This document shows positions 4,388 through 35,231 of a DNA stretch of 37,318 bases, in pieces. How positions within the stretch are numbered: the stretch's first letter is position 1; the number at the start of each line of letters is the position of its first letter. Below the pieces are notes generated by a model. That model was not told where the DNA came from and searched no databases. It worked only from the letters and a program-made list of their open reading frames with translations. The position numbers were made by a program, and so were the translations under genes. Source of the stretch: Prevotella sp. (GTDB lineage Bacteria; Bacteroidota; Bacteroidia; Bacteroidales; Bacteroidaceae); NCBI GenBank assembly GCA_017615355.1, contig JAGAAJ010000045.1, positions 1 through 37,318 on the forward strand. Direction: 5' to 3'.

Positions 4388-7225
4388 ATGAACACTTGGA
4401 AAACTAATCTTGAAGAAACGAAACGGCGATACGTCGACTGGTGGAGCCACAAGGGCATCGTCATCAATATGTGGGAGCACTTCCAACAGGGCGTGAAGCC
4501 ACATGCCGACGTGCCCCAGCCGAAGCCCTATAAAGATCTGAACCAGCGATGGTTTGACCCTGCATGGCGCGCCGAATATCTCGACTGGTATGTGGCACAC
4601 TCCTGTCTAAAGGCCGACATCCTGCCTGTGGCGAATACTCAGCTGGGGCCCGGCTCGTTGGCCGCCATCCTCGGCGGTGTGTTCGAGGGAGGCGAGGACA
4701 CCATCTGGATTCATCCCAACCCGCAGTTTACTGACGACATCGTCTTTAACCCGCAGCATCCTAACTGGCTGCTGCACAAGGAACTGCTGCGTGCCTGCAA
4801 GCAGAAGGCGCAGGGACACTACTATGTGGGGATGCCCGACCTGATGGAGGGCCTCGACGTGCTGGCCGCCCTGAAAGGCACCGACCAGGTGCTGATGGAC
4901 ACGGTGATGCAGCCAGAGGTGGTGGAGCGACAGATGCAGCAGATCAACGACATCTACTTCCAGGTGTTCGACGAGCTCTACGACATCATCCGCGAAGGCG
5001 ACGAGATGGCTTTCTGCTACTTCTCTTCGTGGGCTCCTGGCAAGATGACGAAGCTGCAGAGCGACATCTCGACGATGATCAGCACCGACGACTACCGTCG
5101 CTTCGTGCAGCCTTTCATCCGCGAGCAATGCCAAAGAATTCCCTATACCCTCTATCATCTCGACGGCGTGGGCGCTATGCGCCATCTCGACGCGCTGCTG
5201 GAGATTGACGAGCTGAATGCCATCCAATGGACACCCGGCGTGGGCGAGCCGCAGGGCGGCAGTCCAAAGTGGTACGACCTCTATCGCCGCATCCTCAACG
5301 CCGGCAAGAGTGTGATGGCCTGCTGGGTGACACTCGACGAGCTGCGCCCATTGCTCGACGCCATCGGCACCGACGGCGTGCATATCGAGATGGACTTCCA
5401 TAACGAAGAGGAGGTGGAAAAGGCGATGGAAATAGTGGAAAATAAGAATAATAGTCTCTCCCCCAACCCCTCCCTGCCCTGCAAGCATCCTTTGACCGAG
5501 CAGGAGAGTCTTCTTCTCCTCGACGGCGCGATGGGCACGATGATTCAGCAGCACAAGCTAAGCGAGGAGGACTATCGCGGCAAGCCATTCGCCAACCACC
5601 CCACCGACCTGAAGGGCTGCAACGACGTGCTCGTGCTAACAGCTCCAGCCATCGTAGGTGGCATCCACAAGAAATATCTGGAGTCCGGTGCGGACATCAT
5701 CGAGACAAACACGTTCAACGCTCAGCGCATCTCCCTCGGTGACTACGGTCTGCAGGAGCACGTGCGCGACATCAATCTGGCCGCTGCACGACTCGCCCGT
5801 CAATACGCCGTTGCATTCTCCTCGCCGGACAAGCCCCGATTTGTAGCCGGCAGCATAGGTCCCACCAGCCGCACTTTTATAGGCGTAGAGGGGAAAGCAA
5901 ACCGCGACCAGTTTGCCGTTGCACTGAGAAACGCCTACGAGGAGCAGATACTGGCGCTGGCCGACGGCGGCATCGATGCCCTGCTCATCGAGACCATCTT
6001 CGACGTGGAGAACGCCCGCATAGCTATCGAGGCCGCCAGAAAGGTTGCCCCGCAGCTGCCGCTGATGCTCAGCTTCAGCGTATCCACGCCCGACGGCTAT
6101 AACATGCTGGGACAGAACATCCTCGATTTCCTTTCTCAACTCTCACCCCTACCCTCTCACCTCACACCTCTCACCTCTCACCTCTATTCCATCGGCATCA
6201 ACTGCGTGACCGACGTGGCCCAGATGACACCGCTCGTCAAGGAGCTGGCCCGCTTCGGCACACGTGTCAGCTTTTATCCTAACGCCGGACTGCCTGACGC
6301 CAATGGCCGCTACACAAAGACGCCCGAGAGCCTGCTTCACGACCTGTGGCCTCTGCTAGAAGGACATCATCTCAATATCGTCGGCGGCTGCTGCGGCACC
6401 ACCGACAAGCATATTGCCATGATGGCGAAGGGCATAGAGCCCGTGCCAGGGATTCGGCTGTCGCCTCTGAGGCAAGGAGCCGATATTTCTGACTTTTCTT
6501 GTAACACTAGTCATACTAGTCGAACTAGTCATACTAGTGATACTAGTACTTCTAGTCCTACTAGAAAAGAGGCTATCGCCTCCTCAAACTCCTCCCTTTT
6601 CTCCTCCATTCTCTCTGGTGACACCGACGCTGCCATAGCTGCCACCAAGGAGGCGATTGCTGCCGGAATGGAGCCGCAGACACTCATCAACGACCAGATG
6701 ATCAGCGCCATGAGCGAGGTGGGACGTCGTTTCCAAGAGGGCAAAGCCTTTGTGCCACAGCTGCTGATGGCGGGACGAGCCATGAAAGGTGCCCTGCTAG
6801 AGCTGCAACCCCTGATGGCCGGCACAACGAGGACATCGTTGGGCAAGGTGGTCATCGGCACGGTGAAAGGCGACCTTCACGACATCGGCAAGAACCTCGT
6901 GGCATCGATGCTCGAAGGCTGCGGTTTCGAGGTCATCAATATCGGCATCGACGTCGCTGCCGACAAGTTCATCGAGGCTATCCGCGAACATGAAGCCGAC
7001 ATCCTCTGCATGAGCGCCCTGCTCACCACAACGATGGGCTATATGAAGGAGGTCATCAAGGCCTTGGAGACTGCTGGCATCCGCAACAAAGTGAAGGTGA
7101 TGGTGGGCGGCGCACCTGTGACACAGGGCTTTGCCGACGAGATAGGCGCCGACGGCTATAGCGACAACGCCAACAGCGCCGTTGCCGTAGCAAAGCAGTT
7201 GTTAGGGGTGAGAGGCGAGAAGTAA
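4388..7225 (+). CDS. Three-domain methyltransferase: UroD-like, homocysteine S-methyltransferase, B12-binding
   Basis: 945 aa from the ATG at 4388, just behind the promoter. Residues ~1-360 are a UroD-like domain of the corrinoid-methyltransferase type (MWEHFQQGVKPH, YHLDGVGAMRHLDALLEI, HIEMDF). From ~375 comes a homocysteine S-methyltransferase barrel (LLLLDGAMGTMIQ) with zinc-ligand cysteines in GINCVTDV (~606) and VGGCCGTT (~666-671). From ~720 comes a MetH-type helical cap and cobalamin domain with DLHDIGKNL (base-off histidine ~830) and GGAPVT. Compared with MetH, the methylfolate domain is missing and a UroD-like domain sits in front; the reactivation domain is a separate gene facing this one. 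Inference: methyl transfer to homocysteine through bound cobalamin, with a donor handled by the UroD-like domain. The protein carries low-complexity inserts at ~355-372 (Pro/Ser linker), ~582-599 and ~706-726. Confidence 0.85.
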   Translation: MNTWKTNLEETKRRYVDWWSHKGIVINMWEHFQQGVKPHADVPQPKPYKDLNQRWFDPAWRAEYLDWYVAHSCLKADILPVANTQLGPGSLAAILGGVFEGGEDTIWIHPNPQFTDDIVFNPQHPNWLLHKELLRACKQKAQGHYYVGMPDLMEGLDVLAALKGTDQVLMDTVMQPEVVERQMQQINDIYFQVFDELYDIIREGDEMAFCYFSSWAPGKMTKLQSDISTMISTDDYRRFVQPFIREQCQRIPYTLYHLDGVGAMRHLDALLEIDELNAIQWTPGVGEPQGGSPKWYDLYRRILNAGKSVMACWVTLDELRPLLDAIGTDGVHIEMDFHNEEEVEKAMEIVENKNNSLSPNPSLPCKHPLTEQESLLLLDGAMGTMIQQHKLSEEDYRGKPFANHPTDLKGCNDVLVLTAPAIVGGIHKKYLESGADIIETNTFNAQRISLGDYGLQEHVRDINLAAARLARQYAVAFSSPDKPRFVAGSIGPTSRTFIGVEGKANRDQFAVALRNAYEEQILALADGGIDALLIETIFDVENARIAIEAARKVAPQLPLMLSFSVSTPDGYNMLGQNILDFLSQLSPLPSHLTPLTSHLYSIGINCVTDVAQMTPLVKELARFGTRVSFYPNAGLPDANGRYTKTPESLLHDLWPLLEGHHLNIVGGCCGTTDKHIAMMAKGIEPVPGIRLSPLRQGADISDFSCNTSHTSRTSHTSDTSTSSPTRKEAIASSNSSLFSSILSGDTDAAIAATKEAIAAGMEPQTLINDQMISAMSEVGRRFQEGKAFVPQLLMAGRAMKGALLELQPLMAGTTRTSLGKVVIGTVKGDLHDIGKNLVASMLEGCGFEVINIGIDVAADKFIEAIREHEADILCMSALLTTTMGYMKEVIKALETAGIRNKVKVMVGGAPVTQGFADEIGADGYSDNANSAVAVAKQLLGVRGEK
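6131..6186 (+). repeat. Heptamer repeat, in frame
   Basis: Eight imperfect 7-nt units (CTCTCAC/ACCTCTC type) inside the homocysteine-methyltransferase domain. They translate as an S-P-L-x-S-H-L pattern with a 7-residue period, just before the zinc cysteine in GINC. The same unit type recurs at 15368 and 30394. Confidence 0.9.
6503..6565 (+). repeat. 9-nt repeat (ACTAGT core), in frame
   Basis: ACTAGT occurs at 6506, 6515, 6524, 6533 and 6542, exactly 9 nt apart, followed by two degenerate units. It encodes Thr-Ser-X repeats in the linker before the B12-binding cap domain. Confidence 0.9.
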
Positions 7226-7291
7226 GAAGTAAGAGGAAAGAGGAAAGAGGAGAGAGGAAAGTGGAAAAAAGTAAGAGGTGAGAGGTGAGAG
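7201..7291 (+). repeat. Heptamer repeat filling a convergent intergenic gap
   Basis: About 13 units of 7 nt (GTAAGAG, GAAAGAG, GTGAGAG variants). The array begins inside the last codons of the methyltransferase fusion and ends at the stop codon of the convergent gene at 7293. Positions 7233-7261 are identical to 30767-30795 and to the reverse complement of 13542-13570. Confidence 0.9.
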
Positions 7292-7292
7292 A

Positions 7293-7937: not shown

Positions 7938-7940
7938 AGA

Positions 7941-13263: not shown

Positions 13264-13266
13264 TAT

Positions 13267-13327
13267 TCAGGAGTTTAAGAAGTTTAAGAGTTCAAGAGTT
13301 TAAGAAGTTCAAGAATTCGAGAGCTCA
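13267..13327 (-). repeat. 8/9-nt tandem repeat between recF and the DUF721 gene
   Basis: About seven units of the type AGTTTAAGA / AGTTCAAGA with 7-9 nt spacing. It fills the gap and runs into the last codons of recF, so the RecF C-terminus (LSSELSNS) is partly encoded by the repeat. Confidence 0.85.
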
Positions 13328-14475
13328 GAAGAGAGGCTGACCTGCCCTTCGTTGACACGGAAAAGGCGGTAGTCGCAGTCCCCATGCGAGAGGATCTGGT
13401 CAAGATGCTCACGATTGGTATCGGTGATGAAAATCTGACCAAACTGCTGACTGGCCACCAACCGGATAATCTGCTCCACACGATGTGCGTCGAGCTTGTC
13501 GAAGATATCGTCAAGTAGCAATAGGGGCAAGTCACTTTCCTCTTTCCTCTCTCCTCTTTCCTCTTTCCTCTTTAAAAATTCGTACTGGGCCAGTTTCAGG
13601 GCAATGACGAAGGTCTTCTGCTGCCCCTGACTGCCCTCACGGCGCATGGGATGACCGTCGATGTGAATCTCGAGCTCATCGCGATGGATGCCGTGCAGGG
13701 AATAGCCCACAGCGCGGTCTTTCATGCGGTCGCGACGGATGACGTCGAGCAGCGGACCACGCTGACAATGAGACACATAGTTGAGCGATACCTGTTCGTG
13801 GCCATCGCTCACCGTATTATAAAACTGCTGGAAGGCTGGCGTCAGCTCTTCGACGAAAGCGCTGCGACAAGCCGACACCTCCTCGCCCTGACGCGCCATC
13901 TCCTCCTCCAGCAACTCCATCAGCTGTGCATCGGGCTCGTGATCCTCGTCGCGCAACAGGGCATTACGCTGCTGCAAGGCTTTGTTGTAGCGGTTCAGGG
14001 CGTTGATATAAGGGCGATTGCATTGGGCTATCGTCAAATCCATCAGACGGCGGCGCTCCTCGCTGCTGCCTTCGATCAGCAGCATGTCGGCAGGCGACAC
14101 CATCACCAGCGGGATGAGGCCGATATGCTCAGACAGGCGCTGATATTCCTTTCCATTACGCTTGAAATGCTTCTTCTGCCCCTTTTTCATGCCGCAGAAC
14201 ACTTTCAGGGGTGAGGGCTGGGAGGTGAGAGGTGAGAAATTGGTAAAGGAAGAATAGTTCCCCTCAATCACGAAGAACTCCTCATTGTGCCGGATGGCGA
14301 GGGCGTCCTGATTGCCGTTGGCAGAATGGCAGAAACTGAGGAAGTAGACAGCATCGAGCACGTTGGTTTTCCCTGCCCCGTTGTTGCCGATGAAGCAGTT
14401 GATTTTGGGCGAGAAAGACAGCGTGGCTCCCTCAATATTCTTGTAATTGACGATGGAAAGTTGCTCTAAAACCAT
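13309..14475 (-). CDS. recF: DNA replication/repair protein RecF with two low-complexity inserts
   Basis: 388 aa. SMC-like ATPase that loads RecA at gaps with RecO and RecR. Seen: Walker A GNNGAGKT (30-37), signature GSQGQQKTFVIALKLAQ (281-297), Walker B LLLLDDIFDKLD (318-329), and the C-terminal GQIFITDTNREHLDQIL. The start ATG at 14475 lies about 10 nt after a -7 element. Two in-frame inserts break the normal sequence: NFSPLTSQPSPLK (79-91) and RKEERGERKEES (303-314, just before Walker B). Both come from 7-nt tandem repeats on the DNA. All ATPase motifs stay intact, so the gene should be functional. Downstream is the DUF721 gene. Confidence 0.95.
   Translation of the reverse strand: MVLEQLSIVNYKNIEGATLSFSPKINCFIGNNGAGKTNVLDAVYFLSFCHSANGNQDALAIRHNEEFFVIEGNYSSFTNFSPLTSQPSPLKVFCGMKKGQKKHFKRNGKEYQRLSEHIGLIPLVMVSPADMLLIEGSSEERRRLMDLTIAQCNRPYINALNRYNKALQQRNALLRDEDHEPDAQLMELLEEEMARQGEEVSACRSAFVEELTPAFQQFYNTVSDGHEQVSLNYVSHCQRGPLLDVIRRDRMKDRAVGYSLHGIHRDELEIHIDGHPMRREGSQGQQKTFVIALKLAQYEFLKRKEERGERKEESDLPLLLLDDIFDKLDAHRVEQIIRLVASQQFGQIFITDTNREHLDQILSHGDCDYRLFRVNEGQVSLSSELSNS
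13535..13573 (-). repeat. Heptamer repeat inside recF (AAAGAGG on the coding strand)
   Basis: Five 7-nt units (CTTTCCT, one CTCTCCT on the plus strand), in frame just before Walker B. The coding strand shares an identical 29-nt stretch with the repeats at 7233-7261 and 30767-30795. Confidence 0.92.
14210..14244 (-). repeat. Second heptamer repeat inside recF
   Basis: Units GGTGAGG, GCTGGGA, GGTGAGA, GGTGAGA on the plus strand. On the coding strand this is the CTCTCAC type, giving S-P-L-T-S-x-P in RecF residues ~80-90. Confidence 0.85.
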
Positions 14476-15367: not shown

Positions 15368-15402
15368 TTCACACCTCTCACTTCACACCACTCACCTCTA
15401 AG
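15368..15402 (+). repeat. Heptamer repeat abutting the ribH start codon
   Basis: Five exact 7-nt units: TTCACAC, CTCTCAC, TTCACAC, CACTCAC, CTCTAAG. The ribH ATG follows directly, so the repeat occupies the whole translation initiation region of ribH. Confidence 0.9.
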
Positions 15403-15873
15403 ATGGCAACAAGCAACCTGTCAGCCTACGACGCGCAGAGCGTTCCCGATGCGTCGAACATGATCTTCGGCATTGTTGTGGCCGAATGGAATCCTGAGAT
15501 TACCGGTGCGCTGCTCGACGGCTGCGTCAGCACCCTTGAGAAGCACGGCGCTCTGCCTGAGAACATCCACGTGAAGCGCGTTCCCGGCTCTTTCGAGCTG
15601 ATCTACGGAGCACACCAGATGACGCTGAACGACGGCTACGACGCCGTGATTATCCTCGGCTCAGTCATTCGCGGCGAGACGCCCCATTTCGACTATATCT
15701 GTCAGGGCGTTACTGCTGGAATAGCACGCCTGAACGCCACGAGCAACATCCCCGTCATCTACGGACTGCTCACCACCAACGACATGCAGCAGGCTCGCGA
15801 CCGTGCTGGCGGTCGACTGGGAAACAAAGGCGACGAGTGCGCCATCGTAGCCATCAAGATGGCAAAATTCTAA
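15403..15873 (+). CDS. ribH: 6,7-dimethyl-8-ribityllumazine synthase
   Basis: 156 aa, normal length. Condenses 5-amino-6-ribitylaminouracil with 3,4-dihydroxybutanone 4-phosphate in the last-but-one step of riboflavin synthesis; the enzyme usually forms 60-mers or pentamers. Seen: [19 protein letters not shown] (substrate pyrimidine pocket), [38 protein letters not shown] (with the catalytic His region), [22 protein letters not shown] and the final [14 protein letters not shown]. No other riboflavin genes are in the window. It probably shares the promoter at 14558 with the TPR protein gene. No FMN-riboswitch-like sequence is present in the short gap. Confidence 0.97.
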
Positions 15874-15908
15874 TTGGTTATCGGTTATTGGTTAACGGTT
15901 ATTGTAAC
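15874..15908 (+). repeat. Heptamer repeat in convergent gap (ribH / PAP2)
   Basis: Five 7-nt units directly after the ribH stop: TTGGTTA, TCGGTTA, TTGGTTA, ACGGTTA, TTGTAAC. The array leaves 2 nt before the stop codon of the convergent PAP2 gene. No terminator hairpin is visible in this gap. Confidence 0.9.
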
Positions 15909-18102: not shown

Positions 18103-18255
18103 ATGATTTACAATTTGACGATTTACAATTTACTATTTATTTGTCAATTTGAAGTATTTATCGATTTATCGTGAAGAATGAAAAACCAAATTGAAAAATA
18201 ATAACATTACAAAATCAATTGTAAATTGTAAATTGTCAAATTGTAAATAAAATAT
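18103..18255. repeat. AT-rich heptamer repeats in inverted orientation
   Basis: The left arm (about 18103-18140) has GATTTAC/AATTTGA/AATTTAC units. The right arm (about 18218-18250) has the complementary units AATTGTA, AATTGTA, AATTGTC, AAATTGTA. The arms can pair into a stem of roughly 30 bp around a ~75-nt loop. It fills the gap between the DUF1846 gene and the panE-like gene and may end transcription of the former. Confidence 0.8.
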
Positions 18256-18262: not shown

Positions 18263-19177
18263 ATGACCTACGCAGTTATCGGAACAGGAGCCATCGGCGG
18301 CTATTACGGCGCACGGCTGGCACAGAGCGGACAGCAGGTGCATTTCCTGTTGCATAGCGACTATGACTATGTGAAAGAGCACGGCCTGCAGGTGGACTCC
18401 TGCAACGGCTCGTTCCACTTGGATAAGCCCTTTGTCTACAACGACACTAAGCAGATGCCCAAGGCCGACGTGGTGCTGGTGTGCCTGAAGTCGATAAACA
18501 ACCACAAACTCACTACCCTCCTCCCTCCCCTGCTCCACGAACAGTCGCTGGTGGTGCTCATTCAGAACGGCATCGGCGTCGAGGAAGACGTGCAGGCCAT
18601 GTTCCCCGATGTGCAGCTCGCCGCAGGCCTGGCCTTCATCTGCTCGGCCAAGACGGAGCCCGGTCGCGTCAACCACCAGTGCTACGGACAGATCAACCTG
18701 GCAGGCTATTCCTGTCGCGACGAGGCCCTGCTGCAGCAGGTCTGCGCCGATTTCAACGCCGCCGGCGTGAAGGCAGGCTTGGTGGAATATCATGAGGCCC
18801 GATGGAAGAAAGCCGTGTGGAACATGCCCTTCAACGGCATGACCGTAGCCCTGCACACACAGACTGATATGCTGCTACGCCATCCCGCCACGCGCCAACT
18901 CATCCGCCAGCAGATGATGGAGGTGATAGGTGCCGCACAGCATCTCGGCGTGAAGAACATCGACGAAAGCTTTGCCGACCTGATGATCAGCATGACCGAC
19001 GAGATGACGCCCTACTCCCCCTCCATGCGCCTCGACTACGACTTCCACCGTCACATGGAGCTGCATTATCTCTACGCCCGTCCCATCGAGATAGCCGCCG
19101 CAGCCGGCTTCCCCATGCCCCGTCTCGAGATGCTCATGCACGAGCTGCAGTTCCTCGAGTCCGCCTCCCTCTCCTGA
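18263..19177 (+). CDS. panE: 2-dehydropantoate 2-reductase family protein
   Basis: 304 aa. NADPH-dependent reduction of ketopantoate to pantoate (pantothenate/CoA synthesis) is the family's usual role. Seen: the N-terminal Rossmann motif YAVIGTGAIGGYYGARLAQSG, NGIGVEEDV (NADP/substrate region), and the catalytic lysine region ARWKKAVWNMPFNGMTVAL. A C-terminal helical segment follows (MRLDYDFHRHMELHYLYARPIEIAAAAGFPMPRLEML). The length is normal. Other family members act on different 2-keto acids, so PanE identity is likely but not certain. It stands alone between two repeat regions; the start at 18263 directly follows AT-rich repeats and no clear -7 element was found. Confidence 0.82.
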   Translation: MTYAVIGTGAIGGYYGARLAQSGQQVHFLLHSDYDYVKEHGLQVDSCNGSFHLDKPFVYNDTKQMPKADVVLVCLKSINNHKLTTLLPPLLHEQSLVVLIQNGIGVEEDVQAMFPDVQLAAGLAFICSAKTEPGRVNHQCYGQINLAGYSCRDEALLQQVCADFNAAGVKAGLVEYHEARWKKAVWNMPFNGMTVALHTQTDMLLRHPATRQLIRQQMMEVIGAAQHLGVKNIDESFADLMISMTDEMTPYSPSMRLDYDFHRHMELHYLYARPIEIAAAAGFPMPRLEMLMHELQFLESASLS

Positions 19178-19510
19178 GCACCGTCACTCCCGTTTCGGAA
19201 CACCGTCACTCCCTCTGCTGAGTACCTGCGATGTACGACTGTAGCGTGTCTACATATTGATCAACAGCTCAGGCAAGATCAATGCCTTAGAATCGTCAGG
19301 AGGTTTTTTATGACATTTTGCAGCCGCTTGAAGTGCGCCAGTAATGTGTCAACCTAAACCATAATAATCTATACTGCATAAATGTCCTCAATGTATGAAC
19401 CAAAAATGTTCATACTCAACGTACTTTGCGGCTCTGCACGAGAAAGCAATTTTGCAACTTATTGGTTTTCAGAATAATAAAAATTTACGTTGTTGACGTA
19501 TAATTTTTTC
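19178..19510. other. Intergenic stretch left of the palindromic element
   Basis: No convincing gene. It holds a 13-nt direct repeat CACCGTCACTCCC (19179-19191 and 19201-19213, 22 nt apart) straight after the panE-like stop. A perfect 8-bp inverted repeat GTATGAAC / GTTCATAC with a 7-nt spacer (19393-19415) could be an operator. Base composition becomes clearly AT-richer here and remains so through much of the restriction-modification region. Confidence 0.6.
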
Positions 19511-20068: not shown

Positions 20069-20071
20069 CAG

Positions 20072-22553: not shown

Positions 22554-22567
22554 AAAAAGAAAAGTCT

Positions 22568-25081: not shown

Positions 25082-25135
25082 GTGAGGACATCAGGGCCTG
25101 GCGAATGTTCCACTATGATTGTTTTAAGCAGATAA

Positions 25136-25167
25136 TTTGCTCATTTCAAAAATAGTCTGTATCTTTG
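25136..25167 (+). promoter_or_regulatory. Promoter of the TPR-PP2C phosphatase gene
   Basis: TTTG (25136-25139), a 20-nt spacer and TATCTTTG (25160-25167) make a complete Bacteroidetes -33/-7 promoter about 45 nt before the ATG at 25212. Confidence 0.85.
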
Positions 25168-25211
25168 CATCGTTGATTACTATAAGAATCGTTGTCAGGA
25201 AGGATTCGCTT

Positions 25212-27065
25212 ATGAAAAAGACTGCTGATTTGATTTTCCTTACATTGCTGCTGCTGACCATAGGTGCTACACGCTCCTGGGCTGTAGACCATCTGCCGGC
25301 TGACATCCAGCAGCTGACGGACGATGCATTCCGCTATTACAGCTCGCGACAGACGGAGAAATATTTCGAAACCGTGAAGGCGGTAAAGGAAGCTACGGAG
25401 AAGAAATACGACGAGACATACTACAGGGCGTGCAGCTACGAGGCCCTCTACATGTTTGAGTACGTCGACCGCAAGGAGGGCGTCAAACTGGCTCACTCGA
25501 TGTATCATCATGCAAAGGACGGTGAAAGCAACATCGGCATGTACTTCGCCACCTTCACCCTGGGCTCTATCCGCGAGATGTCGGGCAACTACGAGTTGGC
25601 AGAAAAGAGTTTCAAGCAGGCCATTGAGCTGAAGGAGGAATACTTCCCCGACGAAAGCGGCGCTCCCATCTACCTGGGGCTCTGCGAGATAGCACTCAGG
25701 AAGAAAGACTATGACGCCGTGCAGTCGTATGCCCGTAAGGCGCTGGACGAGCCCAACATCATTCCCATGAACCAGGTGACGGCATGGACATATAAATGCC
25801 TGGTGCGCTACAATCAGGGCGACAGCATCGGCTTTGAGGAGGCCTACAGGGAGCGTGAGCAACTGATAGAGAAGTATGGCGGTCAGGGCGGCATCTTCGG
25901 CGAGCTGCTCACCGTCTATCAGGCCAAGAACCGCAAGCAATGGGAGCTGGCCTTGCGACGCACGGACACGCTGATACACCTGCAGAACAAATGTGCGCAG
26001 AAGGCTGAGATCTACGAGCACATGGGCAATCTGGAACAGGCCCTTTATTGGCAGAAGCGCACGAGGGAAGTCATCGACTCCATCCAGTCGGCCGAGGTGC
26101 GCACGCAGATGACGGAGTTTGACACCGAGCTGGCCATCACCTATGCCGAGAACGAGGCGAAGGAACAGCAGCTGGCCAAGGAACGCCTGCTGCTGACATC
26201 AGGCGGCGTTATAGCAGCCCTTCTCATCGTGTTTCTAAGCATCTTCGCCTATCGCCGCAGGAAGCAGCTGAAACGACTGGAGAGCTTCAACAACAAGCTG
26301 CAGGAAGCCTACGACAAGCTGGAGGAAACCACCAAGGCCAAGGAGCGTATGGAGAGCGAGCTGCGCATTGCCCGCGAGATACAGAAACGCATGCTGCCGC
26401 ACGTATTCCCCAAGCGCAAGGACATAGACATCTATGCCATGATGACGCCTGCCAAGGAGGTAGGCGGCGACCTCTATGGCTACGCCTTGATTGACGACCT
26501 GCTGTATTTCTGCGTGGGCGACGTCAGCGGCAAGGGTGTGCCCGCTGCCCTCTTCATGGCTGAGGTCACACGCATGTTCCGCACGCTGGTGGACGGTCGC
26601 CTGATGCCCGACGTCATTGCGAAGCGACTCAACCATGCGCTGGCCGAAGACAACGAGCAGGGAATGTTCGTCACCATGTTTATCGGACTTATCAACCTCA
26701 AGACTGGTCACATGGAATTCTGCAACGCAGGCCATAATCCGCCCCTGCTCGACGGCGAATACATGAAAATGGAGTCCAACGCCCCCATCGGTCTATGGCC
26801 TGAGCTTGACTTCGAGGGCGAGGAAGTGGACGACATGCACGGGAGAACCCTCTTCGTCTATACCGACGGCATCAACGAGGCAGAGAATATCAACCAGGAG
26901 CAGTTTGGCGACGAGCGCCTGCAGGCCTTGCTCAAGCAGGATCTGGGCGATGCCCGTCAGACCTCAGAGACGATACACAAGGCTGTGGAGGATTTTGTCG
27001 GCGATGCTGAGCCCAGCGACGACCTTACGAAAATGTGTATTAAAATGAAGTCTGTAAATTCATAA
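25212..27065 (+). CDS. Membrane sensor with periplasmic TPRs and cytoplasmic PP2C/SpoIIE phosphatase
   Basis: 617 aa from the ATG at 25212 (MKKTADLIFLTLLLLTIGATRSWA, a signal peptide); the upstream open frame overlaps the promoter. TPR-like helices fill residues ~25-310 (FTLGSIREMSGNYELAEKSFKQAIEL; IYEHMGNLEQALYWQKR). One transmembrane helix lies at ~327-347 (SGGVIAALLIVFLSIFAYRRRK), then a coiled coil (NNKLQEAYDKLEETTKAKERMESELRIAREIQ), then a PP2C-type domain of the RsbU/SpoIIE kind. Metal-binding motifs are AKEVGGDLYGY (~415-424), VGDVSGKGVPAALFM and PSDDLTKM (~600-607). Such proteins dephosphorylate anti-sigma-antagonist proteins or similar partners in answer to a signal. No anti-sigma factor or STAS partner is next to it, so its target is unknown. 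Confidence 0.9.
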   Translation: MKKTADLIFLTLLLLTIGATRSWAVDHLPADIQQLTDDAFRYYSSRQTEKYFETVKAVKEATEKKYDETYYRACSYEALYMFEYVDRKEGVKLAHSMYHHAKDGESNIGMYFATFTLGSIREMSGNYELAEKSFKQAIELKEEYFPDESGAPIYLGLCEIALRKKDYDAVQSYARKALDEPNIIPMNQVTAWTYKCLVRYNQGDSIGFEEAYREREQLIEKYGGQGGIFGELLTVYQAKNRKQWELALRRTDTLIHLQNKCAQKAEIYEHMGNLEQALYWQKRTREVIDSIQSAEVRTQMTEFDTELAITYAENEAKEQQLAKERLLLTSGGVIAALLIVFLSIFAYRRRKQLKRLESFNNKLQEAYDKLEETTKAKERMESELRIAREIQKRMLPHVFPKRKDIDIYAMMTPAKEVGGDLYGYALIDDLLYFCVGDVSGKGVPAALFMAEVTRMFRTLVDGRLMPDVIAKRLNHALAEDNEQGMFVTMFIGLINLKTGHMEFCNAGHNPPLLDGEYMKMESNAPIGLWPELDFEGEEVDDMHGRTLFVYTDGINEAENINQEQFGDERLQALLKQDLGDARQTSETIHKAVEDFVGDAEPSDDLTKMCIKMKSVNS

Positions 27066-27197
27066 CTACCTTCCTGCCTTTTGCCAATTTTTGTTTAAAT
27101 TAAGTGATTGAACGAATGTAAAATAAGGGCGGCGGCTCGCAAACAGAGTTTAAAGGAAGAATTGAAAATGTTAAAATGAAAGAAAAGTAACTGACAT

Positions 27198-28794: not shown

Positions 28795-28920
28795 GAGTCA
28801 GGAATCAGGAGCATAAAGCTGTTTGCCGGACAAAAACGGCAAAGGCAAGGAGTTGGGAGTTAAAAAAGTTTAAACGACGGAAAATAACTCCCAACTCCTA
28901 GCTTTTACTCTTAACTCTTT
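28795..28920. repeat. Heptamer repeats and 15-bp hairpin before rpoD
   Basis: Three weak units (GAGTCAG, GAATCAG, GAGCATA) follow the degP stop. A perfect 15-bp inverted repeat (28848-28862 / 28885-28899) consists of 7-nt units GGAGTTG, GGAGTTA and their complements. The right side continues as AACTCCC, AACTCCT, AGCTTTT, ACTCTTA, ACTCTTT up to 28920, 2 nt before the rpoD -7 element. A further hairpin TTTGCCG/CGGCAAA lies at 28822-28843. One of these may terminate degP transcription, though no strong T-run follows. Confidence 0.85.
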
Positions 28921-28922
28921 CG

Positions 28923-28930
28923 TATCTTTG
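28923..28930 (+). promoter_or_regulatory. -7 element of rpoD
   Basis: TATCTTTG, 36 nt before the ATG at 28967. The -33 region is occupied by the ACTCTTA/ACTCTTT heptamer repeat, and no TTTG is seen at the right distance. Confidence 0.75.
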
Positions 28931-28966: not shown

Positions 28967-29830
28967 ATGAGACAGCTCAAAATCACCAAATCGATAACGA
29001 ACCGTGAGAGCGAGGCCCTGGAGAAATATCTGCAGGAAATCAGTAAAGAAGAGCTAATCAGCATAGAGGAGGAGATTGAATTGGCACAGCACATCCGCCA
29101 AGGCGACCGCAAGGCGGTGGAGCGACTGGTCAAGGCCAATCTGCGCTTTGTGGTATCGGTAGCCAAGCAATATCAGAATCAAGGGCTGTCGCTGCCCGAC
29201 CTCATCAACGAAGGCAACCTGGGACTGCTGCGTGCTGCGGAGAAATTCGACGAGACACGCGGATTCAAGTTCATCAGCTATGCCGTATGGTGGATTAGGC
29301 AGAGCATCCTGCAGGCATTGGCCGAACAGAGCCGCATTGTCCGCCTGCCCCTGAACCAGGTGGGAGCTGTCAACAAGATCAGCCGTGCGGCCAATAAGTT
29401 TGAGCAGGTGCACGAACGCAAGCCATCGGCCGAGGAGCTGTCGGCCAATACCGACCTGCCTGTGGAGAAGATTGACGAGGCGATGGCAGCCAACTCCCGC
29501 CACGTGTCGATGGACGCTCCCTTCAGCGAGAGCGACGACGGCTCGCTGCTCGACCTGCTGCCCAACGACGACATCCCTGAAACTGACAGCACGCTGGTGG
29601 ACGAGTCGCTGAAGACGGAGGTGGAACAGGCCCTGAAGACGCTGAGCGACCGCGAGCGCAACATCGTGAAGGCTTTCTTCGGAATCGGCCAGCCGGAGCT
29701 CACGCTTGACGAGATAGGCATGAAGTTCGGCCTGACACGCGAGCGCGTCAGACAGATCAAGGAGAAAGCATTGCGCAACCTGCGCAACAACAACAAGTAC
29801 AACATCCTGAAAGGTTACTTGGGAAAGTGA
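28967..29830 (+). CDS. rpoD: Primary sigma factor RpoD (short Bacteroidetes type)
   Basis: 287 aa, the usual length of the Bacteroidetes housekeeping sigma, which lacks region 1.1 and the non-conserved region of E. coli RpoD. Seen: region 1.2 (ESEALEKYLQEISKEELISIEEEIELA); region 2 with VKANLRFVVSVAKQYQNQGLSLPDLINEGNLGLLRAAEKFDETRGFKFISYAVWWIRQ; region 3 (IVRLPLNQVGAVNKISRA); region 4 with LTLDEIGMKFGLTRERVRQIKEKALRNLR (the -35-type recognition helix). It directs RNA polymerase to the TAnnTTTG promoters seen throughout this window. The start at 28967 fits MRQLKITKSITNRE, conserved in the phylum. A small exported protein gene follows after 33 nt. Confidence 0.98.
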   Translation: MRQLKITKSITNRESEALEKYLQEISKEELISIEEEIELAQHIRQGDRKAVERLVKANLRFVVSVAKQYQNQGLSLPDLINEGNLGLLRAAEKFDETRGFKFISYAVWWIRQSILQALAEQSRIVRLPLNQVGAVNKISRAANKFEQVHERKPSAEELSANTDLPVEKIDEAMAANSRHVSMDAPFSESDDGSLLDLLPNDDIPETDSTLVDESLKTEVEQALKTLSDRERNIVKAFFGIGQPELTLDEIGMKFGLTRERVRQIKEKALRNLRNNNKYNILKGYLGK

Positions 29831-29863
29831 GTCATTGAGAATCAAGAATTGAGCATTAAAAGA
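29830..29863 (+). repeat. Heptamer repeat between rpoD and the next gene
   Basis: Units TCATTGA, GAATCAA, GAATTGA, GCATTAA with a 7-nt period fill the gap from the rpoD stop to the next ATG (29864). Confidence 0.8.
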
Positions 29864-30295
29864 ATGAAGAAATATATCATTGTCGCTTTGTGCCTGATGA
29901 TGGGCATAGGAACGGCAAGCGCCAAGAAGCAACAGGTGGAGAAGATGTATATGTTCGGTATGGCAGCAGCCTTTACCGACACCATCGTGCACTTCACCAA
30001 CATACAGATCGTGGACAGCGTCTGGATAGAGTCGAAGAACAATTTCCTGCAAGACCGCGATGTCTATTCCAACCAGCTGCGTACCTTCCTGCGCGACAAG
30101 CAGCAGGCTCCCAACCGCACCTGCATCGTCTTCTATTCCACCAAGCGCGAGAAGCTGGAGAAGAAATACCAGAAGATGAAGCGCCTCTATGGCAAGGACA
30201 AAAAGGGAGTAGAGCACTTCGACGTGAGATACATCATGGATACTGACTTCAAGTTTCAGCCAGTAAAGCAGGAGGAGGAACAGCAGGATGAGTAG
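29864..30295 (+). CDS. Small exported protein of unknown function
   Basis: 143 aa from the ATG at 29864 (MKKYIIVALCLMMGIGTASA, a signal peptide cleaved near ASA-KK). The mature part has FTDTIVHFTNIQIVDSVWIESKNNFLQDRDVYSNQLRTFLRDKQQAPNRTCIVFYSTKREKLEKKYQKMKRLYG, then VEHFDVRYIMDTDFKFQPV and an acidic tail (KQEEEQQDE). No cysteine-based lipobox is seen. I do not recognise a family beyond a likeness to conserved Bacteroidales hypothetical proteins. Its stop overlaps the next gene by 8 nt (ATGAGTAG), so it belongs to the kinase/peptidase/PqqD cassette. It could be a substrate of that cassette, but an exported, long protein is not a typical RiPP precursor. Confidence 0.7.
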   Translation: MKKYIIVALCLMMGIGTASAKKQQVEKMYMFGMAAAFTDTIVHFTNIQIVDSVWIESKNNFLQDRDVYSNQLRTFLRDKQQAPNRTCIVFYSTKREKLEKKYQKMKRLYGKDKKGVEHFDVRYIMDTDFKFQPVKQEEEQQDE

Positions 30296-31247
30296 CAGCC
30301 ACTGCTTCTGCATTGCCGGACACCACATCCGAATCAATTTCAACGACGACGACAGCCAGAACAATATGGGACTGTTGCCGTCGTTTCGTCCTTTCACCAT
30401 CAACACTCCACCATCCACCTCTCACCTCTCACCACTCACCTCACACCTCTTTGTAATGGACGTAGACGACAGCCTGCGCCCTGCGAAGGAGAAGAAGCTG
30501 GTGAGGAAATTCGACACAGGCAACGGCGACACCATCGTGCACCAGCTGCCCGACGGCGGCTACCAGTACATCGTGCGCGACATCATGGGCAACGACTGCT
30601 GCCTGCTTATCGCCAACGAGAAGTTCACCCATTGCCGCTGTGCCCTCAACGGCGACTGGACGATGCGCTCCTTCGGCCTGAACAACGCGCTGATGATGAC
30701 CTTCGCCTTTGCCGGCGCCTATCATCAGACGATGCTCATCCACGCCTCGGCCACGATGATCGAAGAGAGGAAAGAGGAAAGAGGAGAGAGGAAAGAGGAG
30801 AGCATCGGTTTCCCTTTTATTGCTGCCAGCGGGACGGGAAAGAGCACCCACACCTCGCTGTGGCTGAAGCACATTGAGGGTGCGCAGCTACTCAACGACG
30901 ACAACCCCATTATCCGCATCATCGACGGCACACCTTATCTTTTCGGCTCACCTTGGAGCGGCAAGACGCCCTGCTATCGCAACCGCAAGACACGTCTCGG
31001 AGCCGTCACACGCATAGAACGTGCTCCACAGAACAGCATCGAGCGCCTGTCGCCCATCGAAGCCTTCGCCTCTCTCCTACCCGCCTGCTCCAGCATGAAA
31101 TGGGACGAGAGCACCTATCGTCTGCTGTGCGATGCCATCACCCGCATCATCGAGACGACACCTATCTATACCCTTCACTGCCTGCCCGATGAAGAGGCAG
31201 CACAACTGTCATACCAAACACTAACTGAGGGATGGAAGAGAGCGTAA
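30288..31247 (+). CDS. HPr-kinase-like P-loop protein of a PqqD cassette
   Basis: 319 aa. P-loop AASGTGKSTHTSLWLKHI (179-196) and the acidic pair LLNDDNPIIR (201-210), followed by GTPYLFGSPWSGKTPCYRNR, are the HprK/P-type serine-kinase core. HprK-like proteins of this kind occur beside PqqD proteins and peptidases in peptide-modification clusters. The N-terminal ~150 residues form a beta-rich domain (VRDIMGNDCCLLIANEKFTHCRCALNG). Two in-frame heptamer inserts are present: SHLSPLTSHL (45-54) and EERKEERGERKEES (159-172). The second sits in the hairpin right before the P-loop strand. The gene overlaps both neighbours (8 and 16 nt), so tight translational coupling is expected. Substrate unknown. 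Confidence 0.8.
   Translation: MSSSHCFCIAGHHIRINFNDDDSQNNMGLLPSFRPFTINTPPSTSHLSPLTSHLFVMDVDDSLRPAKEKKLVRKFDTGNGDTIVHQLPDGGYQYIVRDIMGNDCCLLIANEKFTHCRCALNGDWTMRSFGLNNALMMTFAFAGAYHQTMLIHASATMIEERKEERGERKEESIGFPFIAASGTGKSTHTSLWLKHIEGAQLLNDDNPIIRIIDGTPYLFGSPWSGKTPCYRNRKTRLGAVTRIERAPQNSIERLSPIEAFASLLPACSSMKWDESTYRLLCDAITRIIETTPIYTLHCLPDEEAAQLSYQTLTEGWKRA
30394..30452 (+). repeat. Heptamer repeat in the HPr-kinase-like gene (CTCTCAC type)
   Basis: About eight units (TCACCAT, CCACCTC, TCACCTC, TCACCAC, TCACCTC, ACACCTC) with a strict 7-nt period, in frame, coding for T-S-H-L-S-P-L-type heptads. Confidence 0.9.
30764..30798 (+). repeat. Heptamer repeat in the HPr-kinase-like gene (AAAGAGG type)
   Basis: Units AGAGAGG, AAAGAGG, AAAGAGG, AGAGAGG, AAAGAGG. 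Positions 30767-30795 are identical to 7233-7261 and to the coding strand of recF at 13570-13542, and give the same peptide RKEERGERKEES as in RecF. Confidence 0.92.
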
Positions 31248-31989: not shown

Positions 31990-32005
31990 TCTCTTTAACG
32001 TTTTT

Positions 32006-32644
32006 CTATAGGAGCTGGAGCGGACTTTCGATGAAGGTCGTTGCGCCGTGAGCTTGCAGGAATTCGCGAGTGCGGAATCCCCAGAGCACACTAACGCAGG
32101 GCAGGCCGGCATTACGGGCTGTGAGAATGTCGACGTCGCTGTCGCCCACATAAACTGCCCCTTCCTTTGTAACGCCTAACTGGCGAAGCGCCTCTTCCAC
32201 CGTATCGGGAGCAGGCTTTTTGCGGATGCCTTCCGCCTCATGCTCACCTACAGCCACCTCGATGGTGTCGGCAAAGAAATAACGGCACAGCTCTTTGGTG
32301 GCAGCATCAAACTTATTGCTCACCACAGCGGTATGACAGCCTCGACGGCGCAACTCCGCAAGGAGTTCAGGAATACCGTCGTAGGGACGCGTAGTGTCAA
32401 GCGAATGTTCCAAATAATAACTTCGGAAGGCAGCAAGCACTTCTTCAAACAACGGATTAGCCTCACCATCGGGCACAGCACGCTGCATGAGCACGCGGAC
32501 ACCGTTGCCCACAAAGCTACGCACATCGTCGATGCTATGCTCAGGTAAACCGTGTCTACGCAGGGCATAGTTCACAGCAGCAGCCAGATCGCCAAGCGTA
32601 TCAAGCAGGGTGCCGTCGAGGTCGAAGATATATACGGAGTACAA
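32006..32644 (-). CDS. gph: HAD-family phosphatase (phosphoglycolate phosphatase-like)
   Basis: 212 aa. HAD motifs: I FDLDGTLLDT (7-16), II VVSNKF, III lysine in RKKPAPDTVEEAL, IV VYVGDSDVDILTARNAG. The alpha-helical C1 cap after motif I (DLAAAVNYALRRHGLPEHSIDDVRSFVGNGVRVLMQRAV) is typical of Gph, which hydrolyses 2-phosphoglycolate; PGMB or other sugar-phosphate specificities cannot be excluded. The start must be the TTG at 32644: an in-frame TAA stands directly before it, and no ATG or GTG lies before motif I. The TTG is formed by the end of a heptamer repeat. malQ lies upstream on the same strand, 28 nt away. Confidence 0.88.
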   Translation of the reverse strand: MYSVYIFDLDGTLLDTLGDLAAAVNYALRRHGLPEHSIDDVRSFVGNGVRVLMQRAVPDGEANPLFEEVLAAFRSYYLEHSLDTTRPYDGIPELLAELRRRGCHTAVVSNKFDAATKELCRYFFADTIEVAVGEHEAEGIRKKPAPDTVEEALRQLGVTKEGAVYVGDSDVDILTARNAGLPCVSVLWGFRTREFLQAHGATTFIESPLQLL

Positions 32645-32677
32645 TTATGAACTATGAACTATGAACTTTGAATTATG
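32643..32677 (-). repeat. Heptamer repeat between malQ and the Gph-like gene
   Basis: Plus strand: AATTATG, AACTATG, AACTATG, AACTTTG, AATTATG, with an exact 7-nt period. It covers the whole 28-nt gap, the malQ stop codon and two bases of the TTG start of the Gph-like gene. Confidence 0.92.
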
Positions 32678-35192
32678 ATTGCCGGCGACTGCGAGTAATC
32701 ATCGTCTTCAGTTTCTTATTATATCGCCCAGCCTCCATCAGCTGTTCGATGGTGAGGTGCATCCGCCACTGCCAGCGGTTGTAGGCATCGCTGGGTGTGT
32801 TGATGCGCTCATCACGCGGATTCTTCGCACGCAGCTCATGATCCATCGCCAGCCAGTCTTGCAATGAGAGGATGCAGAGCATAGAGGGCGAATAGAGATG
32901 GCGGGCGATGATTTCCTCTGCCAGATGAGCAGGCAACTGCTCAGGAGCGCGTCCCTGCTTCTGCAACATCGTGGTGTAGAAACGCTGGGCACGCTCAGGC
33001 TGTTCCTGCCACCAGAGACGAAGGGGAGCCATATCATGCGTGGTGATGGTGGCGACGCTGCGAATGGGGTTGCCGTCCAAGTGGGTGAACTCTACCCCTG
33101 CCTGCTTCGGCATCTGCTGAATCTCAAGGGTGAGGATGCGCAGGCTGTCGAGCACAGGCTGTACACAGTCAGGCAACATGCCCAAATCCTCTGCGCAAAG
33201 CAGCATGTGCGTGGATTGCTGCAAACGACTGAGACGGTCATAGCCCGTCTTTCCCCAGAACATGTTGTGACGCTGATAGAAGAAATGGTTGTAGATGCGC
33301 ATGAAGGCTTCTTTCTCTTCGGAAGAGAGCGCATCATAGACGGGTTCCTGCCAAGCCTGTATACGCGGATGGAACATATCGGGCTGACGCGGGTCTTCGA
33401 GGAAAAGCACATTGGCCACAAGACGGCAGAGGGCATCGCGAATCCACAGGCTGTTCTCATCACCTCGTCCTTCGAAATACTCCATCACCCGTCGCTGTGT
33501 ACTCACCTCATCCTTCAGGTCGTAGAGGCCATAAGCCTTCTGAACGAGGAAGGTGTCGCGCACATACTGTGCATGGATGCCGAAGAGGCGGTCGACGACG
33601 CGGTCGTTGATGAAGGGACGGGTGAGGAAATCACGACGGAACGACAGGCCAAAGTATTCTATCTCGCCTGCAGTCAAAGGCAATGCCGGCGAAAAATGTC
33701 CCAAGGTGCCATAGATTTGTTCCTGCGGAATCTCCCAGATACGGAAGAAACCCAGCACGTGGTCGATGCGCAGGGCGTCGAAATACTGTTCCATGTTGTG
33801 CAGGCGCTCGTCAAACCACTCTTCGATGCCTTCCGCCTGCCAGTTGTAGGTGGGGAATCCCCAATTCTGGCCCTGCTGAGAGAAAGCATCGGGCGGGGCT
33901 CCTGTCTGTCCGTCAAGATGGAAGAACGTGGGATGTTCCTTCACCTCGCTACTATTGCGACTGACGCCGATGGGCAGGTCACCCATGAGGATGATGCCCA
34001 AGGAACGGGCGTGGTCGGCAGCACGCTTCAGCTGTTCGTGCAGATGGTGCTGAATGTATTCCGAGAAGGAGAACTTCTCGGCACACTGTTGCTCTTCGTA
34101 GAGGGTCTTCAGGTATTCGGTCTTCACTCGGTCGACGGCTTCGTAGTCGCTATAGCCCAGGGCGTTGAGCTCACGCTGCTGGCGACGGAAGGCCGTCATG
34201 CGCTTTTTATCCTTTAAGGAAGGCAACTGATTGAGGTCGATGTAATGCGGATGAAGCCTAAAGGCCGACATGATGTTGTAGGGATAGGAGTCGCCCCATT
34301 GGTGGGTGTCCGTCGTATCATTGACGGGTAACAGCTGGATGACCTTCAGCCCTACCTCGGCAGCCCAGTCGATGAAGCGGTAGAGATCGCCGAAGTCCCC
34401 CACCCCACAGCTCTGCTCAGAGCGCAGGGAGAAGACGGGCACGCAGACACCGGCAGCACGCCAGGTTTTCTCGGGCAGTCGCAGCGGCTCACCATAGGCG
34501 ACGTAGACCTCGCCATCGTTCAACTCATCAGGAGAAATGCGATTATCTCCCTCTTCCCAAGCCACCAGCTCGTGTTTCTCTTCGTCTACCACCACATATT
34601 TATATTCGAAGGGCAGTCCCAGCCAGTCGACATTCAGCGTCAGCATCCAGTCGCCCTTTCCTGCAGGCACCATCGGCATATAGCGCATAGGATTCCATGA
34701 GCCCAAAGCAGGATGACTGCCAATAACGGCTAACGACTGGCCTGTCAGCAGTTGCGGCGCAGAAACACGGAACAATACCGTCTTGCGGAAAAACGGAAGC
34801 GTGAGTGGTGAGAGCTGCGAGGCAAGAGTGAGGTGAGAGGTCACCTGATAGGCGCTACTATAGAGATGTGCGGGCAGCGGCAGGTCTCGCCAGATATCAG
34901 CCAGGATAAACGTCTTTGAGGAATCAAAGGCATAGAGACGGGGCACACCGTTCCATTCGCGGCGCAGCTCCTTTCCCTCGCCATCCTCCACAATATATAT
35001 ATATGAGAAGGCCTCTACGGGACTGCGACGACTCTCCAGCACAACGGTCTCTGCCGTCCAGAAGTCGCCGTCGTCAGTAAGCATTGGCAGGCGGTCTTGA
35101 CGAACAAAGCCATCGTGGGAATGATAGCTGATGAGCACAGTCATCTGCTGTCCCCACTCCGTACGGTAATGTATCGAAAAGCGTAGTTTCAT
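32673..35192 (-). CDS. malQ: 4-alpha-glucanotransferase (GH77) with two starch-binding domains
   Basis: 839 aa. The N-terminus holds two CBM20-like domains (MKLRFSIHYRTEWGQQMTVLIS..., ~1-105; and VLFRVSAPQLLTGQSLAVIGSHPALGSWNP, ~138-240), as in plant DPE2 and Bacteroidetes MalQ. The GH77 core starts near GVCVPVFSLRSEQSCGVGDFGDLYRFIDWAAEVGLKVIQLLPVNDT. Catalytic residues: nucleophile Asp in DALRIDHVLGFFRIWEIP, acid/base Glu in LLCAEDLGML, and Asp in TITTHDMAPLRLWW. It rearranges maltodextrins by transferring glucan units, in glycogen/starch breakdown, and is probably cytosolic since no signal peptide is seen. An in-frame heptamer insert (TSHLTLASQLSPL, about 118-130) lies exactly in the linker between the two binding domains. 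It follows hisC after 39 nt. Confidence 0.93.
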   Translation of the reverse strand: MKLRFSIHYRTEWGQQMTVLISYHSHDGFVRQDRLPMLTDDGDFWTAETVVLESRRSPVEAFSYIYIVEDGEGKELRREWNGVPRLYAFDSSKTFILADIWRDLPLPAHLYSSAYQVTSHLTLASQLSPLTLPFFRKTVLFRVSAPQLLTGQSLAVIGSHPALGSWNPMRYMPMVPAGKGDWMLTLNVDWLGLPFEYKYVVVDEEKHELVAWEEGDNRISPDELNDGEVYVAYGEPLRLPEKTWRAAGVCVPVFSLRSEQSCGVGDFGDLYRFIDWAAEVGLKVIQLLPVNDTTDTHQWGDSYPYNIMSAFRLHPHYIDLNQLPSLKDKKRMTAFRRQQRELNALGYSDYEAVDRVKTEYLKTLYEEQQCAEKFSFSEYIQHHLHEQLKRAADHARSLGIILMGDLPIGVSRNSSEVKEHPTFFHLDGQTGAPPDAFSQQGQNWGFPTYNWQAEGIEEWFDERLHNMEQYFDALRIDHVLGFFRIWEIPQEQIYGTLGHFSPALPLTAGEIEYFGLSFRRDFLTRPFINDRVVDRLFGIHAQYVRDTFLVQKAYGLYDLKDEVSTQRRVMEYFEGRGDENSLWIRDALCRLVANVLFLEDPRQPDMFHPRIQAWQEPVYDALSSEEKEAFMRIYNHFFYQRHNMFWGKTGYDRLSRLQQSTHMLLCAEDLGMLPDCVQPVLDSLRILTLEIQQMPKQAGVEFTHLDGNPIRSVATITTHDMAPLRLWWQEQPERAQRFYTTMLQKQGRAPEQLPAHLAEEIIARHLYSPSMLCILSLQDWLAMDHELRAKNPRDERINTPSDAYNRWQWRMHLTIEQLMEAGRYNKKLKTMITRSRRQS
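34799..34840 (-). repeat. Heptamer repeat in malQ (CTCTCAC type on the coding strand)
   Basis: Plus strand reads CGTGAGT, GGTGAGA, GCTGCGA, GGCAAGA, GTGAGGT, GAGAGGT. It is in frame, in the linker between the two CBM20-like domains. Confidence 0.85.
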
Positions 35193-35203
35193 AGAAAGGA
35201 TAT

Positions 35204-35231
35204 TAGTTAAAAGGTTAAAGGTAGGAAAGGG
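35204..35231 (-). repeat. Heptamer repeat between hisC and malQ
   Basis: Plus strand units TAGTTAA, AAGGTTA, AAGGTAG, GAAAGGG end exactly at the hisC stop codon (35232-35234). Confidence 0.75.

Follow-up and report, generated by a model that had tools for sequence, protein, structure and literature searches.

The contig JAGAAJ010000045.1 of a Prevotella sp. genome (GenBank assembly GCA_017615355.1), whose 37,318 nucleotides (nt; positions 1 to 37,318 of the forward strand) are referred to here as the window, carries short imperfect tandem arrays of 7-nt units at many places, both between and within genes. Comparison with relatives shows gain, loss and replacement of these arrays among species approximately 8–18% apart in DNA, and their units are partly genome-specific. 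The explanation that we prefer, at a probability of roughly 45%, is that they are short-lived and largely neutral tandem-repeat insertions produced by host replication and repair.

The window belongs to genome G000 (3,246,813 bases, 147 contigs, 89.7% complete), from which 40 further stretches (584,798 bases) were sampled; with the window, the sample comprises 622,116 bases, of which 87.7% is coding according to a codon-usage gene caller. Gene calls outside the window are those of this simple caller alone, which trims some starts. Arrays in the window were counted if at least 12 of 14 positions match at a given lag; for the wider samples a strict count was made, and a looser threshold, yielding 96 lag-7 arrays, was used for several comparisons. 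Segments were also scored: values of at least 9 are clear and values of 7.0–8.4 are weak, a level that 2–3% of random 60-nt windows reach. The lag-7 arrays reported in the first-pass annotation of this DNA are real: the window has 11 arrays with at least 12 of 14 matches at lag 7, exceeding every other lag from 4 to 12 (0, 0 and 1 at lags 4–6; 1, 3, 0, 0 and 2 at lags 8–12). When the window is resampled by Markov models of order 1, 3 or 5 (40 resamplings each), lag 7 yields 0.03–0.17 arrays, and a single 50-kb stretch of E. coli contains none. Period 7 is dominant in the window by both Tandem Repeats Finder and lag counts. Sixteen places had been listed, in 14 entries; 12 of them are clear, while the four at 28795, 29830, 34799 and 35204 score 7.0–8.4 and are weak. 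Lag 7 exceeds lags 5, 6, 8 and 9 at all 16, by a slim margin at 35204 (7.2 versus 6.5). The comparison with neighbouring lags, proposed in the same annotation as a check, favours lag 7 in the rest of G000 as well, where 56 strict arrays at this lag compare with 13, 14 and 7 at lags 6, 8 and 9 and with none at lags 5, 10 and 11.

The second check proposed was conservation across species, and the arrays are not conserved. In a wider scan of 49 arrays, 181 non-independent comparisons were obtained, in which some low-identity absences may be alignment misplacements. Where the flanks are 85–90% identical, the array is absent in 21 of 23 comparisons and has the same unit in two. At flank identities of at least 90%, three sites have the same unit, three a different unit and three no array; at 80–85% (n = 68) the corresponding numbers are 1, 12 and 55, and at 70–80% (n = 81) they are 2, 2 and 77. 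At approximately 82–92% DNA identity, relatives often have no array, an array of another unit or an unrelated inverted-repeat insert at the corresponding site, which implies continual formation and removal of arrays. The arrays of the window are listed below (no strand is assigned to an array), together with the state of each site in its relatives. L054 and L055, the closest named relatives of the window, are loci from uncultured Prevotellaceae metagenome-assembled genomes, and G097 is another genome.

6134..6185: TCTCACC array in a methionine-synthase-like gene (4325-7225, plus strand), encoding the peptide ...PSHLTPLTSHL...; score 27.5; no array here in G097, the only relative compared at this site (L175 and L177 do not cover it or do not align).
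7201..7291: AGAGG-type array (AAAGAGG, GAAGTAA and GAGGTGA units) spanning the stop codon of the methionine-synthase-like gene and the convergent gap; score 48.4; only the first part has a counterpart in G097, a GAAGTAA array.
13535..13573: AAAGAGG-type array, in frame in an SMC_N/RecF-like gene (13309-14475, minus strand); no array in L055.
14207..14237: GAGGTGA array, in frame, the second in the same SMC_N/RecF-like gene; score 14.2; related sequence below the array threshold in L055.
15369..15399: CTCACAC-type array filling the stop-to-start gap upstream of the lumazine synthase gene; score 9.4; no array in L055.
15873..15901: TTGGTTA array in the gap following the lumazine synthase gene; score 14.4; no array in L055.
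18105..18248: inverted pair of AATTGTA-type arrays (18105-18139 and 18217-18248) between the DUF1846 and ketopantoate reductase genes; a 34-nt gap with no array in L055.
28795..28919: weak TCAGGAA array and inverted GGAGTTA/TAACTCC arms upstream of a sigma factor gene (28967-29830); scores 7.4 and 10.3; the region differs in L055.
29830..29863: weak GAATTGA array in the gap following the sigma factor gene; score 7.0; stronger related arrays in L054 and L055.
30400..30449: CTCTCAC array within gene 30288-31247, which has no Pfam match; in frame; score 25.3; no array in L054 or L055.
30754..30802: AAAGAGG/AGAGAGG array (MIEERKEERGERKEESIG), in frame, the second in gene 30288-31247; score 26.6.
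32643..32678: AACTATG array in the intergenic gap that separates the HAD hydrolase gene from the 4-alpha-glucanotransferase gene; score 22.0; a GGATGAT array in L054 and no array in L055.
34801..34841: decayed GAGGTGA array in the 4-alpha-glucanotransferase gene (32673-35192, minus strand); score 8.4, weak; an unrelated inverted-repeat insert at this site in L054.
35204..35231: weak GGTTAAA array in the gap before gene 32673-35192; score 7.2, with lag 8 nearly equal; unchanged in L054 save one adjoining substitution, and absent from L055.

Seven of these sites can be compared with L054, which is 90–92% identical in DNA: 28795-28919 and 35204 hold the same array, 29830 holds a related unit, 30764 and 32643 hold different arrays, 30394 holds no array and 34799 holds the inverted-repeat insert. 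L055 (~83–90% identity) has no array at 8 of 12 sites, as read by eye. The array at 30754-30802 lies in a gene with a relative in 103 of 120 sampled genomes of the genus. No insertion is found here in 26 of 28 aligned relatives (L049 was excluded from this alignment), and the insertion of L027 is shorter. The nearest of the aligned relatives, G097, has an insertion of the same length in which CCTCTNN-like units replace AGAGGNN; it is array-like by eye and fails the strict count. L054 has a different array that is 33 nt longer.

The first-pass annotation stated that the unit differs by locus. Many unit classes do coexist in G000, and the statement falls short in that 17 of the 96 arrays belong to one class and the number of classes is 44, compared with 85 expected at random. 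On the purine-richer strand the units consist of 40% A, 35% G, 20% T and 4.5% C. Variants within arrays comprise 112 transversions and 80 transitions, and the variable positions per unit number 2.33 versus 2.72 at random (58 arrays), a mild concentration at some positions. Pairs of arrays of the same class make up 4.1% of pairs within genomes and 1.7% between genomes (permutation p = 0.0015); without G000, these values are 5.1% and 2.0% (p = 0.016). Arrays no more than 300 nt from another, as well as the PorX arrays described below, were excluded within samples. This excess is the main reason for thinking that units spread inside a genome, and it lends no support to the earlier view that a constant period with changing sequence speaks for a fixed copying step "rather than one spreading sequence". 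A common flanking element was sought in G000 and rejected: flanks are not generally shared, with nothing beyond 7 pairs among the 96 arrays, and by eye these pairs mostly reflect paralogous or repeated surroundings. An enrichment of TGA in the units (58 versus 21.9 expected) was set aside, as it is inflated by large classes and intergenic arrays have no orientation bias.

Genome-specific units are illustrated by a response regulator with a PglZ domain, which we take to be PorX-like. Of the 12 species aligned for this protein, with L198 and short matches L203-L205 excluded, three hold arrays in one loop, and each has its own unit: CTCACCT in G000, AATGGTC in G116 and GAGGAGC in G115. When the PorX arrays are dropped from the samples, the class of the first (AGAGGTG) is the top class of G000, with 13 of 82 other arrays versus 0 of 50 in three other genomes. 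AATGGTC accounts for 4 of 24 arrays in G116, where it is joint commonest with AGAGTTG, versus 1 of 108 elsewhere; the class of the third (AGCGAGG) accounts for 2 of 15 arrays in G115 versus 0 of 117 elsewhere. In G062 the loop holds an inverted-repeat insert. A GH38 protein compared in three species likewise has different heptamers in G000 and G097 and an inverted-repeat insert in G059; the G097 unit is AGAGTTG, which is not genome-specific. Unrelated GC-rich inverted-repeat inserts (e.g., CCTCCCCCGACTGGGGGAGG) thus occupy loops that hold heptamers elsewhere, namely at the 34799 site of L054, in the PorX-like gene of L196 and in the GH38 gene of L207.

Such loops raise a bolder idea, which we hold tentatively and regard as rather doubtful: a kind of "endless" repeat may be spreading through Prevotella that is bound to no particular sequence, termini or enzyme. 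Only the length of the step and a set of units peculiar to each genome would be inherited, and host replication would write these units into gaps and protein loops. Species would then fill one loop (PorX-like, GH38) differently, making new peptide insertions at a high rate.

A rival account is that each array is born in place from a chance near-repeat by local slippage, with the ~7-nt step set by the replicative polymerase. This was proposed by Mrazek et al. 2007, who also described the excess of heptamers among long-unit simple sequence repeats, as cited in PMC4679880 and PMC4692102. The introduction of PMC4679880 gives heptamers as the commonest long-unit repeat category in most genomes. Between L083 and L088, which are 84–96% identical in aligned pieces, a 58-nt length change (8 units and 2 nt) falls within one unit family, a change that slippage could produce, and some unit classes recur across species. 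We nevertheless consider local slippage alone unlikely. The unit classes are genome-specific beyond chance, lags 7, 8 and 9 are about equally frequent in pooled relatives while lag 9 dominates G097, and several array-free relatives have a far shorter PorX-like loop with no obvious seed by eye.

With respect to placement, the 96 arrays comprise 43 intergenic, 45 coding and 8 edge cases, while intergenic DNA is 12% of the sequence; the arrays are enriched between genes, though they are not mainly intergenic. Arrays had been said to fill nearly every gap longer than about 25 nt between co-oriented or convergent genes in the housekeeping part. Among co-oriented or convergent gaps of 25–199 nt, those with a score of at least 7 number 8 of 12 in the window and 59 of 219 elsewhere; one of the eight (30296-30455) lies within the open reading frame 30288-31247, the start of which was trimmed by the caller. 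Over all 231 gaps this score is reached at lag 7 in 67 and at lags 6, 8 and 9 in 23, 27 and 18, and at a score of at least 9 the gaps outside the window number 40 for lag 7 versus 42 for lags 6, 8, 9 and 10 combined. The earlier picture is correct in kind and overstated in extent. The restriction-modification block, described as free of arrays, indeed has no lag-7 segment scoring 8 or more, but this absence is not significant because the array density of the genome predicts only ~1.2 arrays for its 7.9 kb. Window positions 19152-27073, which contain the restriction-modification genes and an SpoIIE/TPR gene, match ~470 nt in L055, and this block was therefore either gained in the G000 lineage or lost in L055.

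Within called genes there are 45 arrays at lag 7 and 7 at lag 8, while 26 and 20 fall at lags 6 and 9, the multiples of three; the coding lag-7 arrays are therefore no by-product of codon repeats. They encode recurring peptides, e.g., SPLTSHLSP, HTSHLSPLTS, KEERGERKEE and QLSTLNSQL, in genes assigned by Pfam to methionine synthase, RecF/SMC, riboflavin kinase, the response regulator with a PglZ domain, the GH38 enzyme and others. The pyrimidine-rich reading is commoner within genes (28 versus 17), which fits the removal of stop codons. An inverted partner within 250 nt is found for 13 of 95 arrays in G000 (2 of 285 controls) and for 18 of 70 in G097 (9 of 210 controls), both members of a pair being counted.

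Inverted pairs form strong hairpins in some gaps, which is one reason to ask if the arrays are functional cis elements, such as terminators, translational signals or phase-variable switches. A 7-nt unit within a gene could also switch its frame, and 28795-28919 has no substitution between the window and L054: over 28795-28930 there are 0 substitutions and one 4-nt indel, in an aligned block that is otherwise ~8% different. We judge a cis function to be improbable, given that the arrays have no common sequence, are rapidly lost or change their unit, and occur inside genes (RecF-like, flavokinase, methionine synthase). An oriented signal in particular was ruled out, as there is no orientation bias relative to genes: between co-directional genes the two orientations number 17 and 14.

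Under the replication-and-repair explanation that we prefer, a few units would be copied from the genome's existing arrays to a new place, in either orientation, perhaps by replication template switching at short matches. Such a seed would then lengthen or shrink by whole units through strand slippage. A preference for steps of ~7–9 nt would follow if mismatch repair clears smaller loops and longer slips are rarer; MutS spares longer loops, and a MutS_I domain is present in G000. Selection would merely remove arrays that break something, and a dedicated enzyme would be unnecessary. Unit spread and local growth both seem to be at work.

Several results weigh against this explanation. Loci do not in general have their variant units in a common order, and the copying step is less secure for it. 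A common order was sought in four classes: it beat shuffled units in two, and a reversed-order control that keeps runs removed most of the effect. In one class the mean longest shared string is 13.56, versus 13.39 with the order reversed; in another it is 17.07 versus 15.67, and of its 15 pairs 6 are longer and 6 shorter. Only single cases, such as the 33 nt identical between the 13535 and 30764 arrays, consequently show multi-unit blocks being copied. Contrary to the prediction of slippage, none of the seven sites compared with L054 has the same unit at an altered copy number, and plain slippage is thereby weakened. The match between PorX units and genome classes concerns three species, was made post hoc and involves low numbers of units in G115 and G116. 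Unit classes also overlap between genomes, since AGAGTTG occurs in 2 of 11 arrays in G097, 6 of 82 in G000 and 4 of 24 in G116. Lastly, 80 named relatives' loci (1,453,084 bases, pooled) have 5, 52, 45, 39 and 9 strict arrays at lags 6, 7, 8, 9 and 10 and do not set lag 7 apart from lags 8 and 9.

These pooled counts, together with the dominance of lag 9 in G097, also speak against a 7-nt step that holds in every genome. Lags 8 and 9 are concentrated in a few of the pooled genomes, and L097 alone has ten lag-8 arrays. The G097 sample has 26 arrays at lag 9 versus 8 at lag 7, while G116 has 20 at lag 7 and 2, 4 and 8 at lags 6, 8 and 9; no strict lag-7 array is found in G016 or G024 (100 kb each). 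Array density and period therefore vary among species of one genus. Outside the genus, a small sample (100 kb from 10 other Bacteroidia genomes) has 3 lag-7 arrays at the looser threshold.

Many of the lag-9 arrays of G097 are a single family, AAAGGAGTT, flanking a conserved core; the unit also occurs in L085. The inverted 9-base arms surround a core of which ~56 nt is conserved between G097 copies, an arrangement resembling a miniature inverted-repeat transposable element (MITE), and folding energies are about -84 to -92 kcal/mol for stretches of ~220–280 nt. Copies are located at:

L170:2412-2545 (G097)
L159:16506-16642 (G097)
L160:6733-6850 (G097)
L160:8894-9070 (G097)
L085:4105-4300

This family, the inverted-repeat inserts in the same loops of other species and weak Y1_Tnp matches in G097 and G116 would fit arrays moved by an enzyme, as MITE-like or repetitive extragenic palindromic (REP)-like elements with a transposase acting in trans. 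For the G000 arrays this is, in our view, quite improbable, since their flanks are not generally shared and no fixed ends are seen. Y1_Tnp is not found in G000 or G115, both incomplete (other transposase families were not searched), and G016 has three Y1_Tnp matches yet lacks a strict lag-7 array in 100 kb. An origin from a Y1 transposase was rejected on this distribution, the domain also being not found in G024, weak in G067 and present in G059.

Telomerase-like reverse transcriptases such as DRT10 offer another enzymatic source, with the arrays as their integrated products. According to PMC12632851, DRT10 uses an RNA template to synthesize repeats of 9 nt and of other lengths, and its motifs vary in length. 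The arrays here differ in period and unit from species to species, and RVT_1 is present in the relatives G059 and G067. However, dozens of unit classes coexist in one genome, and RVT_1 is not found in G000 (90% complete), G097, G115 (62% complete) or G116, making this origin very improbable. The DRT10 products resemble the arrays in being system-specific tandem repeats; they are cDNA made by a defence system, with no mention of genomic arrays in the passages of PMC12632851 consulted, and G000 lacks an RVT_1 match. Filler DNA from Ku-dependent end-joining was also rejected, as Ku is not found in any of the six genomes searched.

The tandem heptanucleotides of Calothrix are known as STRR. With these and other heptameric simple sequence repeats, our arrays share tandem heptamers at many places, an enrichment between genes and several units per genome. 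They differ in that called genes contain about half of them, the imperfect units fall into dozens of coexisting classes, and gain, loss or replacement occurs at orthologous places between species 8–18% apart. The first-pass annotation knew of no heptamer counterpart in Bacteroidetes, which is contradicted by the TAACTGA direct repeats reported from Beggiatoaceae, some cyanobacteria and five Bacteroidetes (PMC4679880). Those 7-base repeats are mostly intergenic (one Bacteroidetes set lies inside purC), and consist of one sequence, mostly just upstream of start codons in the main organism (PMC4679880), whereas ours are varied and unoriented; the TAACTGA class is absent among the 44 unit classes of G000.

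Small repeats in frame in unrelated protein genes are also known from the Rickettsia palindromic elements (PMC10969869). Our 45 arrays in called genes are comparable, and the examined cases have empty orthologous sites. As presented in PMC10969869, the Rickettsia elements form palindromic families of ~150 bp, in contrast to tandem arrays with no fixed ends; comparison of unit classes and flanks revealed no conserved ~150-bp palindromic element among the G000 arrays. The BrickBuilt MITE of Porphyromonas gingivalis (PMC4596501) is likewise a dispersed tandem repeat in Bacteroidales, and its plan resembles the 9-base element of G097. It has a 23-nt unit, a leader and a tail, is always intergenic, and occupies 16 of 19 places in common across strains (PMC4596501). 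Conserved ends or a core between copies are found in the 9-base family of G097 and not in the G000 arrays. Description of such repeats in Prevotella was not found in the open-licence literature searched. The bacterial heptamer excess and heptamers in a few Bacteroidetes are already known; what looks new is the load of arrays in frame within genes, the specificity of units to genomes and the speed at which arrays are replaced.

If our explanation is true, the birth of tandem repeats, which is hard to observe, could be traced in Prevotella by comparing close species and strains. The arrays would provide a rapid route for proteins such as the RecF-like protein, methionine synthase and flavokinase to gain insertions of ~10–20 residues, and would have consequences for annotation and strain typing of Prevotella-type bacteria.

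Repeats of other unit lengths were also observed. In the window, a 9-base array (ACTAGTCAT) lies within the methionine synthase gene at 6498-6564, and an 8/9-base AGTTTAAGA array at 13265-13327 begins in the gap after 12998. Tandem arrays of a 22-nt unit, several of them partly palindromic (e.g., TTGCACAAACTGTGCA), occur in L069, L056, L083, L088, L095, L098, L106, L116 and L122, with 50 strict lag-22 arrays in the 80 relatives' loci. L106:6120-6400 is a very long palindrome (-147 kcal/mol), the arms of which carry TTAAGAA heptamer arrays and further short repeats.

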